Source: Clostridiales bacterium (GTDB lineage: Bacteria; Bacillota; Desulfotomaculia; Desulfotomaculales; VENG01). From it: a DNA stretch of 64,000 nucleotides. This document shows, piece after piece, positions 40,101 through 44,604 of the stretch. Each line of letters begins with the position of its first letter. Position 1 is the first letter of the stretch. The translations under genes and the position numbers were made by a program. The stretch covers positions 1-64,000 of the forward strand of contig JAIPEW010000012.1 in NCBI GenBank assembly GCA_021736985.1. The letters are read 5' to 3'. The notes beneath the pieces are model-generated. The model saw nothing but the letters and a program-made list of their open reading frames with translations, searched no databases and had not been told where the DNA came from.

Positions 40101-41471
40101 GTGAAAAAGTGGGTTGCTTTTCTAGTCGTAGGATTAGTAGCAATAGGAGGTATCGGTTACTGGGGATATACTCAATATACCACTTTACAAAGAGCAGAAG
40201 TGGCACTAGCCAATAATTACAATCGTGCATTTTATAATACTCTTGAACACGTTCAAAACTTGGAAGTACTTTTATCAAAAGGTATGGTTTCTGCTGATAA
40301 AATGCAAAACAGTAAGATATTTACCGAATTGAGGAATCAAGCTTCTGCTGGCCTGGATAGCCTGACCCAGCTTCCCATCAGGGATATAACTGCAGCCCGG
40401 ACGGCCAAGTTTTTTACCCAGCTGGGAGATTTTAGCCAGCAAATGGCGGAGAAAGTGGAAAACGGAAAAACGTTAACTGAAAAACAAAGCAAACTAATGC
40501 AGAAACTGTATACACAGGCCGGTGAATTAAATGAAGAGCTGCAAGAAGTGGAATCCAAGGTAACAGATGGTGATATTGATTTTACCGAGATGAGCAGAAA
40601 AACTAGCCGGCAGTTAAATAAAGAAGGAAAGAGACTGGAAGGGCCTAATTTTCAGACTATTGACAGTAAAATGCAGGAGTATCCAACTTTAATATATGAT
40701 GGGCCTTTTTCGGATCACCTGGCAGATAGAGATCCGGAAGCATTAAAAAACAAGAAAAAAATAACCAGCAATAAAGCCAAGGATACAGCAGAAGATTTTT
40801 TCAAGGGTGAAAAAAATAATGATTTTGTAGCCCAGGTTACTGGAGAAATAGGTGGAAATATCCCTGCTTATCGCGTACAGCTTACACCGCGCAAGAATGG
40901 AAAAGTTGTGGGACAGCAAACAATGGTAGATGTTTCAAAAAAAGGTGGAGAGATGATCTGGATCTTAAATCCCAGGGATATTGATAAGTCAAAAATAAGT
41001 ATAGACAAGGCTAAAGAAGAAACGAAAAAATTTTTAAGCAGTCACGGGTATGATAATATGAAATCAAGCTACTACCAGAGGCAGGGTAATATGGTTATAT
41101 TCAATTTTATAGGCAAAAAAGGGGATACCGTGATATATCCTGATATGATGAAGATAACAGTTGCTCTCGATAATGGAGAAGTAGTAGCCCTGGATAACAG
41201 AAGTTATTTGATGAATCATCATGAAAGAGATTTACCCGAGCCAAAATTAACAAGAGAAGAAGCAAAGGAACTCCTGGCAGGTGGAATAGAAGTAGATGGA
41301 AAAGGTCGCCTGGCTGTAATACCCACGGAAACTTTTGAGGAAAAGTTAACCTGGGAATTTAAGGGGAAAAAGAACGACAATACATTTTTAATTTACATTA
41401 ATGCCATGAACGGGCAGGAGCAAAAGATTCTGCAGCTTTTGCGTACTAAAAACGGCACTTTAACTATGTAA
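40101..41471 (+). CDS. ypeB: Germination protein YpeB
   Basis: YpeB is needed for SleB incorporation and stability in the spore. The 456-aa product has an N-terminal transmembrane helix (WVAFLVVGLVAIGGIGYWGY), a helical domain (NNYNRAFYNTLEHVQNLEVL) and C-terminal PepSY-like repeats (for example ISIDKAKEETKKFLSSHGYD and LTREEAKELLAGGIEV). GTG 40101 with GGGAGGGG upstream is preferred over the frame start at 40074. It ends the sleB-ypeB operon. Confidence 0.94.
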   Translation: MKKWVAFLVVGLVAIGGIGYWGYTQYTTLQRAEVALANNYNRAFYNTLEHVQNLEVLLSKGMVSADKMQNSKIFTELRNQASAGLDSLTQLPIRDITAARTAKFFTQLGDFSQQMAEKVENGKTLTEKQSKLMQKLYTQAGELNEELQEVESKVTDGDIDFTEMSRKTSRQLNKEGKRLEGPNFQTIDSKMQEYPTLIYDGPFSDHLADRDPEALKNKKKITSNKAKDTAEDFFKGEKNNDFVAQVTGEIGGNIPAYRVQLTPRKNGKVVGQQTMVDVSKKGGEMIWILNPRDIDKSKISIDKAKEETKKFLSSHGYDNMKSSYYQRQGNMVIFNFIGKKGDTVIYPDMMKITVALDNGEVVALDNRSYLMNHHERDLPEPKLTREEAKELLAGGIEVDGKGRLAVIPTETFEEKLTWEFKGKKNDNTFLIYINAMNGQEQKILQLLRTKNGTLTM

Positions 41472-41507
41472 TAATAATTACAGGAAGAATATACTGATAA
41501 TTATCCG

Positions 41508-41536
41508 TTGACACTGTTTTTGTATACTGCTATAAT
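41508..41536 (+). promoter_or_regulatory. Consensus SigA promoter of the T-box leader
   Basis: TTGACA at 41508-41513 and TATAAT at 41531-41536, with exactly 17 bp between them, are both perfect consensus hexamers. Confidence 0.9.
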
Positions 41537-41541
41537 CTATC

Positions 41542-41799
41542 CATATATTCTGAAAATTAATGTTATGATGTGGAAAAAGGTACTGGAATCGCTAAGCGAG
41601 CCGGGGGTGGTGTGAGCCCGGTCGGGGAAAGTACCGGGCCTCCTCTGAACAGCAGGCTGAAACCTTACATATGGGAGTAAGTTGTGGCCGTTTACCCGCG
41701 TTAAGGGTTAAAAGGGGACTGTTAATTGGAACAGTCAACTTGGGTGGTACCGCGAGCAAACTCTCGTCCCTTGTGAAGGGGCGGGAGTTTTTTTTATTT
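41542..41799 (+). ncRNA. T-box riboswitch leader
   Basis: The stem I distal part is recognisable in GCGAGCCGGGGGTGGTGTG and AGCCCGG, closed by GGTACT/AGTACC. Stem III is GACTGTT...AACAGTC (41718-41738), and the T-box TGGGTGGTACCGCG lies at 41741-41754. The terminator stem with its T8 tail is at 41759-41797. Uncharged tRNA should favour the antiterminator. The specifier codon lies in or near ACAGCAGGCTGAAA, and I cannot choose it with certainty (GCT for Ala is one reading). No gene follows directly, since three repeat copies fill the next ~750 bp. Confidence 0.92.
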
Positions 41800-41916
41800 A
41801 AATAGAAAACTCCCTGAAAACTATGGCTAGGGCTGGAGGAAACCACCGGCCCTCCACCCAACTGTCAGAAGAGTTTTCATACTCCGTTGTGAGCTCTAAG
41901 CTCGTGAGCGTTTAAT
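41797..41916 (+). repeat. Intergenic repeat, copy 7 (short core)
   Basis: It starts AAATAGAAAACTCCCTGAAA immediately behind the T-box terminator. The inner GGGCTGG/CCGGCCC fold-back is followed by CCTCCACCCAACTGTCAGAA and the shared right end. It is the first unit of a tandem array of three. Confidence 0.85.
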
Positions 41917-42258
41917 CAGAAAACTTCCTGAAAATTATGGCCAGGGCCGGGGGATTTCCGGAAGGTAGCGGAGTCTGGGTGCGCTGCATAGCCCGTCAAA
42001 TCCCGAAATCCCGGCTACTAAGGGCGTAAAAAACTTGCTGTGTAGTATCATTAAGCGGGTTTCTAAAACATACTTTATGCTCCCAGTAAAAATACGTCCA
42101 GCACTCAGCCCATTTCTAATGCAGGAAAGACAGAAGTAAAAATATACTACTTATAACACAATTTTTTAAAAAGCGCACTGAGTGCTGGACCGGACCTCCA
42201 CCCAGCCGTCAGAAGAGTTTTCATTTTCCGTTGTGAGTAAGAAACTCGTGGGGGTTTA
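41911..42258 (+). repeat. Intergenic repeat, copy 8 (core type iii)
   Basis: Shared left end, then TTTCCGGAAGGTAGCGGAGT and CGCTGCATAGCCCGTC. The long core has CCCGGCTACTAAGGGCGTAA and AACTTGCTGTGTAGTATCA, which is nearly identical in copy 13, and CCCAGTAAAAATACGTCC, which is shared with copy 1. The shared right end ends CTCGTGGGGGTTTAAA. Confidence 0.85.
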
Positions 42259-42546
42259 AATAGAAAACTACGTTCTAAAACGCAAATAACAATCTGCAAA
42301 TTGAAAGGGCTGGTGGATTTACGGAAGGCAGGGGAGTCTGGGTACGCTGCATAGCCCGTCATTTGCGAAGTGTGATATGGGAGGTGGGAAGTATGACAGT
42401 TTGAGGAAGTCTGCTGCGTAGACTTTTTCTTTTTCCCATCTCTAATTTCCCAATTCTCACTTCTGCCCTTTGCCCTGGTCCTTCACTCAGCAGTCAGAAG
42501 ATTTTTCATACTACGTTGTTAACAAGAAGCTCGTGGGAATTTAATT
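42254..42546 (+). repeat. Intergenic repeat, copy 9 (core type ii)
   Basis: Left end with TAAAACGCAAATAACAATCT, core with CATTTGCGAAGTGTGA, GTCTGCTGCGTAGACTTTTT and TCTGCCCTTTGCCCTGG, right end with AGCAGTCAGAAG and AAGCTCGTGGGAATTT. The core matches copies 2, 10 and 11. Confidence 0.85.
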
Positions 42547-42673
42547 AATAAACCCTGCACAGGATACCTTTAAATCTGCATATGTAAAATTTTTGAAAAT
42601 GAAGCAGGTATAATCAAGTAAATATATTTGCTGTAAAGTTTTACAAGAAATATTTTGAAAGGAGTGAAAAACA

Positions 42674-43159
42674 GTGAATGAAAAAGAACTTCTCGAGCTG
42701 TTGGAAACTAATGCTAATTTGTCAATTGCTGAAATATCAGCAATGTTAAATGCTTCCGAGGATGAAGTAAAAGAAAAAATAAAAGAGCTGGAATCGAATA
42801 AAACTATATTAAGATACATGACGCTGGTAAACTGGGAGAAATGTGAAAGAGAACAGGTTGAAGCTTTAATAGAAGTACGTATTACTCCGCAGAGAGAAGT
42901 AGGTTATGATGCTGTAGCTGAGCGTATATACCGTTTTCCAGAAGTGCGCAGTGTCAAGTTAATGAGCGGTACTTATGATCTGGCAGTATTTGTTGAAGGA
43001 AAAAGCATGCAAAAAGTAGCCCATTTCGTAAACACAAAATTGGCGACAATAGAAGGTGTAGTAAATACTGTAACTCACTTCGTGTTAAAAACTTATAAAA
43101 AAGATGGGGTTATTATTGGAGACCAGGAAGAAGATAGGAGGTTGATGATTTCACCATGA
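42674..43159 (+). CDS. Lrp/AsnC family transcriptional regulator
   Basis: The 161-aa protein has an N-terminal winged HTH (ANLSIAEISAMLNASEDEVK) and a C-terminal RAM (Lrp ligand-binding) domain with EVRSVKLMSGTYDLAVFVEG. It is the partner of the aminotransferase gene that overlaps it by 4 bp, and so probably controls that gene in response to an amino acid. GTG 42674 follows GAAAGGAG. It is the first gene downstream of the T-box leader, but 870 bp of repeats lie between. Confidence 0.9.
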   Translation: MNEKELLELLETNANLSIAEISAMLNASEDEVKEKIKELESNKTILRYMTLVNWEKCEREQVEALIEVRITPQREVGYDAVAERIYRFPEVRSVKLMSGTYDLAVFVEGKSMQKVAHFVNTKLATIEGVVNTVTHFVLKTYKKDGVIIGDQEEDRRLMISP

Positions 43160-44400
43160 AAAACATGTGGGAAGAAAAGCTGAGCCCGGTAGTGAAGTCT
43201 ATACCACCTTCGGGGATCAGGAAATTCTTTGATTTAGTAAGTGAAACCAGGGGAGTAATTTCTTTAGGCGTGGGTGAACCTGATTTTGTAACACCGTGGC
43301 ATATTCGTGAGGCTGCAATTTATGCGATAGAACAGGGGTATACTATGTACACCTCTAATTACGGGCTTTTAGAGCTTCGTGAAGTAATTAGAGATGATAT
43401 ATACAAAAACTACGAAGTTCAATATGACCCGAGAGCGGAAATATTGGTAACTGTAGGAGTAAGTGAAGCTCTGGACCTGGCTATGCGCGCTGTTATTTGC
43501 CCAGGGGATGAAGTGTTGATACCCGAGCCGTCCTATGTCAGTTATGCACCTACAGCGGTGTTGGCAGGGGGAAAACCTGTTTTTATGCAGACTACCATGG
43601 ATAATAATTTTGTTTTGACTCCTGAACAGGTAGAAAAATCGATTACTCCCAGGACCAAGGTCTTGATGATTTCATATCCTAATAATCCAACTGGTGCTGT
43701 AATGGATCGTGAAACAATGCTGGGCCTGGCAGAGGTAGCAAAGAAACATGACTTAATTATAATTTCAGATGAAATTTATGATAAACTTAATTATACGGGG
43801 GAACAGACTTGTATGGCTGCTTTACCCGGTATGCGAGAGAGAACAATATTATTAAACGGTTTCAGCAAAGCTTATGCCATGACGGGATGGAGAATAGCAT
43901 ATGCTGCTGCTCATGCTGATTTTATTAGTGCCATGACAAAAATCCACCAGTATTCTATCCTTTGCACACCAATATCAGCTCAAATGGCAGCCATGGAAGC
44001 ATTGAAAAACGGGGATACTGCAATGAAAAAAATGGTGCGTGAATTTAATCGCCGCCGCCACCTTGTATTGCAAGGATTTAAAGATATGGGACTGCCGTGT
44101 TTTGAGCCCGGCGGGGCTTTTTATGCATTCCCTAATATAGAAGTTACTGGTTTATCATCAGAAGAGTTTGCTGAACAGCTGCTGCAGGAAGCCCAGGTTG
44201 CAACAGTTCCCGGCAGTGCTTTTGGAGATGCAGGAGAAGGCTATATACGCGTCTCTTATGCCTCTTCAATAGAAGATATAAGTGAAGCACTGCGGCGTAT
44301 GGGCAAGTTTGTCCGGCGCAGGGGTGTATTTCCTAAAAAAGTAAGTACATCTAGCGGCACGGATTTTGTTCAGAAAGAAGGAATTTGTAATAATGTGTAG
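43156..44400 (+). CDS. PLP-dependent class I aminotransferase
   Basis: The 414-aa fold-type I enzyme has SLGVGEPDFVTPWHIREAA, YPNNPTGAVMDRETM, IISDEIYDKLNYTG and the PLP-lysine motif NGFSKAYAMTGWRIAYA. It belongs to the aspartate/aromatic aminotransferase group often paired with an Lrp regulator. The location upstream of a phenylacetate-CoA ligase and iorAB suggests aromatic amino acid transamination, but substrate specificity cannot be read from the sequence. The last ~25 residues are a less conserved tail. Confidence 0.88.
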   Translation: MKNMWEEKLSPVVKSIPPSGIRKFFDLVSETRGVISLGVGEPDFVTPWHIREAAIYAIEQGYTMYTSNYGLLELREVIRDDIYKNYEVQYDPRAEILVTVGVSEALDLAMRAVICPGDEVLIPEPSYVSYAPTAVLAGGKPVFMQTTMDNNFVLTPEQVEKSITPRTKVLMISYPNNPTGAVMDRETMLGLAEVAKKHDLIIISDEIYDKLNYTGEQTCMAALPGMRERTILLNGFSKAYAMTGWRIAYAAAHADFISAMTKIHQYSILCTPISAQMAAMEALKNGDTAMKKMVREFNRRRHLVLQGFKDMGLPCFEPGGAFYAFPNIEVTGLSSEEFAEQLLQEAQVATVPGSAFGDAGEGYIRVSYASSIEDISEALRRMGKFVRRRGVFPKKVSTSSGTDFVQKEGICNNV

Positions 44401-44604
44401 AAGGTGCTTACTTAGTATTTAACTAATTTACAAATAACGCAGTACGGGAGGATGGTAGTTATGTATAATATAAAAAATTACAGGTCCTGAATTGTCTATT
44501 TTTAAGAAAAAGCAGCTTCAGGGACCTTTGGTATGGGGTGAGCCGGTTTAGAGCCGGCCCCACAGCCAGGGTGGAATATTCCCTGGTTATTTTTATTTCT
44601 AGAG
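44401..44604 (+). promoter_or_regulatory. Structured leader with short peptide ORF
   Basis: GGGAGG at 44446-44451 precedes ATG 44461, which opens a 9-codon peptide (MYNIKNYRS) ending with TGA at 44488-44490. Three hairpins follow: AGGTCCTGAA with TTCAGGGACCT, a GCCGG/CCGGC hairpin inside GGGG/CCCC (44535-44561), and the terminator CCAGGG/CCCTGG plus T-rich tail at 44566-44597. This is the architecture of a translation-coupled attenuator, although it could also be just the terminator of the aminotransferase operon. Confidence 0.4.
44566..44597 (+). terminator. Terminator downstream of the aminotransferase gene
   Basis: CCAGGG and CCCTGG pair around a 9-nt loop, followed by TTATTTTTATTT. Confidence 0.75.

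Follow-up and report, generated by a model that had tools for sequence, protein, structure and literature searches.

A T-box leader with an alanine specifier separated by repeats from its lrp-aminotransferase operon

The T-box leader and its specifier

The window analyzed here is a 64,000-nt stretch of contig JAIPEW010000012.1, and the locus under study lies on its plus strand. From 5′ to 3′, it holds a promoter, a T-box leader with its terminator, three copies of a repeat, the gene for an Lrp/AsnC family regulator (lrp) and the gene for a PLP aminotransferase. The leader promoter (41508-41536) is of the sigma-A type, with the sequence TTGACA-17-TATAAT and an extended -10 TG, and it is the sole plus strand promoter-like site within 41300-42800. 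Its 12/12 match to the consensus agrees with an earlier reading of the letters made without database searches (the sequence-only reading), which had called the promoter perfect. That reading also described a complete T-box with an intact terminator and suggested a covariance-model search with the Rfam T-box family. The search gives a full-length match to RF00230 (model positions 1-219, 104.3 bits, E = 6e-22, cut-off 93) at 41556-41774, spanning Stem I to the antiterminator, and the intrinsic terminator is a stem of 15 pairs at 41758-41790 (-22.3 kcal/mol), so both parts of the description hold. The Rfam antiterminator ends at 41774 and shares its 3′ part with the 5′ arm of the terminator (41758-41770), and the two folds are mutually exclusive. 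The leaders of relatives score 97-117 bits with the Rfam model; the 104 bits of the window's T-box falls within this range, which gives no sign of leader decay. These data establish the anatomy of the leader.

By the TBDB definition (PMC7778990), the specifier of a T-box leader lies 2-4 nt short of the end of the specifier bulge, and the GCC at 41638-41640 fits this placement. GCC encodes alanine and corresponds to the anticodon GGC. An alignment of 27 leaders, the window's own counted in, has GCC at this position in 26; the remaining one, which is diverged, has ACC instead. The antiterminator bulge carries UGGU at 41745-41748, which reads TGGT in 27/27 leaders and pairs with the ACCA of tRNA-Ala; the tRNA-Ala(GGC) of this genome ends in the matching ACCA. 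Taken at face value, the lower internal loop would give a leucine or serine specifier (CUC or UCU). This was rejected because that loop forms the kink-turn, and in the specifier loop it is GCC that is conserved. With GCC established as the specifier, the predicted ligand of the T-box is uncharged tRNA-Ala(GGC).

The repeats and the downstream genes

The terminator stem is separated from the lrp start codon by 883 nt, and ~748 of these are repeat sequence. The sequence-only reading had counted three repeat copies behind the terminator, with the first beginning at the terminator tail, and both points were confirmed. Copy 1 (41797-41915) starts in the T-run of the terminator and is a short derivative with both ends present and the core deleted. 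Copy 2 (41911-42259) is a full element, 92-97% identical to other genomic copies, that folds into a long branched hairpin in which the ends pair (-94.8 kcal/mol, z -2.85). Copy 3 (42255-42544) is an element with an alternative inner module. Over their shared parts, the three copies are 73-78% alike; because they differ from one another, collapse of this array in the assembly is unlikely. The assembly consists of 65 contigs, and seven of them (C2, C23, C25, C32, C50, C51 and C62) begin inside the same repeat family, which indicates that repeat arrays are hard to assemble in this genome. The remaining 129 nt (42545-42673) contain the ribosome-binding site of lrp. This segment was considered as a further repeat and rejected, as it has no second match in the genome.

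Core patterns of the repeat family match the 2.84-Mb genome 52 and 75 times, and the reversed control patterns match 0 times. In BLAST hits, the similarity between copies is 78-97%. Copies stand alone, in tandem or at contig ends, and some are deletion derivatives. When 60 genomes of the order were searched at the DNA level, four of them, including the own genome, gave matches, and distant relatives of the repeat core are present in two genomes (G054 and G045). Most repeat ends carry TTTAA, which is either target or element sequence. Assignment to a known RNA family was rejected, with the best Rfam match (E = 0.34) far below its cut-off. We regard the repeats as a high-copy, noncoding, MITE-like and putatively mobile family. 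A preference of the repeats for terminators was also considered. A terminator-like hairpin is found in 13/139 intervals adjacent to repeat edges versus ~3% further out, and intergenic position alone can account for this difference. No repeats interrupting the other T-boxes of the genome were found. The hisS T-box leader (L007) has a copy of the same family just upstream (1378-1469) and is the only such T-box.

The lrp gene (42674-43159) encodes an AlaR-like regulator that shares 72% identity with its ortholog in the nearest relative. It begins with a GTG codon at 42674, in line with the ~870 bp that the sequence-only reading gave as its distance downstream. The second gene (43156-44400) encodes a class I PLP aminotransferase of the AlaT/PRK07682-like type. 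Its score against NCBIfam PRK07682 is 558 bits, below the cut-off of 620 for the named function, and its closest PDB structure is 1DJU. Past the aminotransferase gene, at 44500-44600, GC-rich hairpins and a T-rich tail stand directly before another repeat copy and probably mark the end of the alanine operon.

In Bacillus subtilis, the Lrp-type gene alaR adjoins alaT, the gene for alanine transaminase. A literature search for an alaR-alaT operon gave nothing relevant. The GCC specifier, the ACCA-ending tRNA-Ala and the AlaT-like enzyme together make an alanine-controlled, alaR-alaT-like operon the likeliest reading of the lrp-aminotransferase pair, with the enzyme activity predicted from sequence. 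The alanine specifier thereby gives a predicted role to the Lrp-aminotransferase pair of the whole order.

Position of the leader in relatives and its bearing on control

Orthologs of lrp are present in 57/60 relatives, and 29 of the relative loci were read. A T-box stands upstream of the same lrp-aminotransferase pair in 26/29 of these relatives of the order, and the aminotransferase gene directly follows lrp in 30/30 loci when the window's own is included. The distance from the T-box motif to the gene is 63-146 nt in 24 relatives versus 919 nt in the window, and in the nearest relative the terminator lies ~40 nt from the start codon. The occurrence of the same leader and specifier before the same gene pair identifies this leader as the ancestral leader of the operon and places the arrival of the repeats later, in this lineage. 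This comparison establishes both the operon membership of the leader and the insertion relative to relatives, and it bears out one of the two options offered by the sequence-only reading, that the repeats inserted between the leader and its operon. The other option was an orphaned leader whose original gene was lost, with an unrelated Lrp operon now downstream. The large gap by itself would suit such a history, but in 26/29 relatives an orthologous leader with an identical specifier precedes this operon, which makes the option so improbable that we discard it. A repeat-free relative with a gap of ~870 bp between leader and gene would have spoken against insertion; it was sought among the relatives and none was found.

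Two relatives of one family, G017 and G054, are exceptions in spacing, with ~410-420 nt from motif to gene. G017 (L028) has a small extra intact gene between the T-box leader and lrp. G054 (L031, about 1230-1450), a member of a second genus, has a remnant of this small gene followed by a repeat that is distantly core-related to those of the window. In a further relative, G035 (L027), the T-box motif is absent, with hardly any sequence between the promoter region and the lrp ribosome-binding site. Relatives of the same genus (L030 and L035) have the full leader, and it looks as though the whole T-box leader upstream of lrp was deleted in G035.

These results support a model in which an alanine-responsive leader of the lrp-aminotransferase operon received repeats behind its terminator and now acts on a gene 883 nt away, a reading that we hold to be probable. 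Before the insertion, lrp would have stood a few tens of nucleotides behind the T-box terminator, and hairpin-forming repeat copies would then have landed just behind that terminator in this lineage. Uncharged tRNA-Ala(GGC) would pair with the GCC specifier and the UGGU, and the antiterminator would form. Polymerase would pass the terminator and reach lrp-alaT after transcribing the three repeats, which would then make up a long, structured 5′ UTR. With charged tRNA-Ala, transcription would end at the terminator (41790). Control of the operon by the leader most likely persists through such read-through into lrp, which is expected to be in use because the leader is undecayed and the operon has no better promoter. 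The earlier description of the leader as cut off from its gene is accordingly correct for the physical separation; nothing points to the loss of leader control that the wording implied.

The content of the spacer bears on whether read-through reaches lrp. Repeat copy 3 contains a terminator-like hairpin (42403-42429; 12 pairs, -13.8 kcal/mol, T-rich tail) that, by its predicted fold, could stop read-through. A perfect TATAAT that may act as a promoter lies near 42610, and no plus strand consensus promoter was found in the spacer. These two features, together with the very long and structured 5′ UTR, would fit an uncoupling of leader and operon by the insertion, in which transcripts halt in the repeats, expression of lrp-alaT depends on a new or nonconsensus promoter in 42545-42673 and the T-box persists as a relic. 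This outcome is unlikely, though it deserves more weight than the orphaned leader: the leader and its promoter are without decay, the TATAAT has no -35 partner and the count of terminator-like sites in the region is close to the shuffled expectation.

The repeats might instead have been co-opted, perhaps to serve the leader in RNA processing or stability. In the window at 41781-41816, the first repeat bases GAAAACTCCC are complementary to the T-box terminator 3′ arm GGGAGTTTT. Under co-option, the repeat start GAAAACUCCC could pair with the free terminator 3′ arm GGGAGUUUU in the read-through RNA and thereby lock the antiterminated state. This complementarity of 10-11 bp has a folding energy of -13.7 kcal/mol, and G054 also has a distantly core-related repeat between the same T-box and lrp. 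The G054 insertion, however, sits in the remnant of an extra gene, and the same repeat end recurs at dozens of unrelated sites, which makes the complementarity to the terminator probably a matter of chance. We consider co-option highly unlikely. The locus is a clean natural experiment: structured, putatively mobile sequence places leader and operon ~750 nt apart and the leader is intact, so the distance tolerated by T-box antitermination becomes testable here.

Source of the predicted ligand and comparison with known systems

Among the 50 tRNA hits in the genome, with anticodons assigned by ARAGORN, a single gene encodes the tRNA-Ala(GGC) that matches the specifier. This gene, complete with an encoded CCA (G000:C64; L004, L201, L230), is nested in a different T-box leader (C64:55726-56025), where it stands between Stem I and the antiterminator; the specifier of the surrounding leader is CUC (leucine). 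Judged by eye, the gene behind the tRNA-bearing leader encodes an acyl-CoA synthetase in most relatives, and in two its start resembles that of a leucyl-tRNA synthetase. A strict pattern search gave tRNA-Ala with the anticodon GGC in 20/20 loci. The tRNA-Ala(GGC) gene is followed by a T-box antiterminator within 14-23 nt in 34 of the 62 genomes of the order having the gene (loci L182-L200, L245-L272 and L303-L306 besides the own); a single pattern match in each of G037 and G033 appears spurious. The nested arrangement occurs in six families (f1, f3, f4, f5, f9 and f17), and the gene is free-standing in f6, f8, f12, f13, f14, f15, one f3 member and one f17 member. In most loci, a helix of 5-9 bp can form between the bases flanking the nested tRNA, much as in the stem that normally precedes the antiterminator.

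The predicted ligand of the window's T-box thus appears to be made only from the leucine T-box transcript. With the only exactly matching tRNA nested in this leader, ligand supply would be tied to the transcription and processing of the other switch. We lean toward the view, with less assurance than for the insertion itself, that the alanine and leucine T-boxes form a cross-wired pair and that the nested tRNA, conserved across these genomes and families, is undescribed; a literature search, mostly outside subscription journals, found no description of a T-box leader that contains a tRNA gene. The arrangement raises the question of whether one riboswitch transcript can serve as both switch and tRNA precursor. 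Elsewhere in the genome, two T-box leaders (L005 and L006/L013; G000:C53 and C4) each have a second T-box motif ~103 nt downstream and are possibly partial tandem T-boxes. Their specifier is apparently UUC (Phe), and L013 stands before a phenylacetate-CoA ligase-like gene.

The repeats resemble MITEs and IS200/IS605-type palindrome-associated elements in being noncoding, <400 bp and high in copy number, and in having internal complementary arms and tandem and deletion derivatives. They differ from these elements in that most of their ends carry a constant TTTAA, of target or element origin, in place of a variable target duplication, and in having two interchangeable inner modules. The operon is like alaR-alaT of B. 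subtilis in that an Lrp-type gene precedes one for a class I aminotransferase with 1DJU as its nearest structure, the closest solved relative also reported for B. subtilis AlaT (PMC6522883). Unlike alaR-alaT, the operon stands under a T-box, and its aminotransferase is a putative alanine transaminase. The leader belongs with the alanine-class T-boxes (RF00230), represented by the alaS leaders of Clostridium acetobutylicum and Bacillus subtilis (PMC4695836), with which it shares Stem I with specifier and kink-turn, the UGGU of the antiterminator bulge and the terminator/antiterminator switch. Alanine T-boxes mostly have 3′-U specifiers according to TBDB (PMC7778990), and the studied alaS leaders use GCU (PMC4695836), whereas the specifier here is GCC. 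The leader also differs from the alaS leaders in preceding a regulator-aminotransferase operon rather than alaS and in having ~750 nt of repeats between its terminator and the gene.
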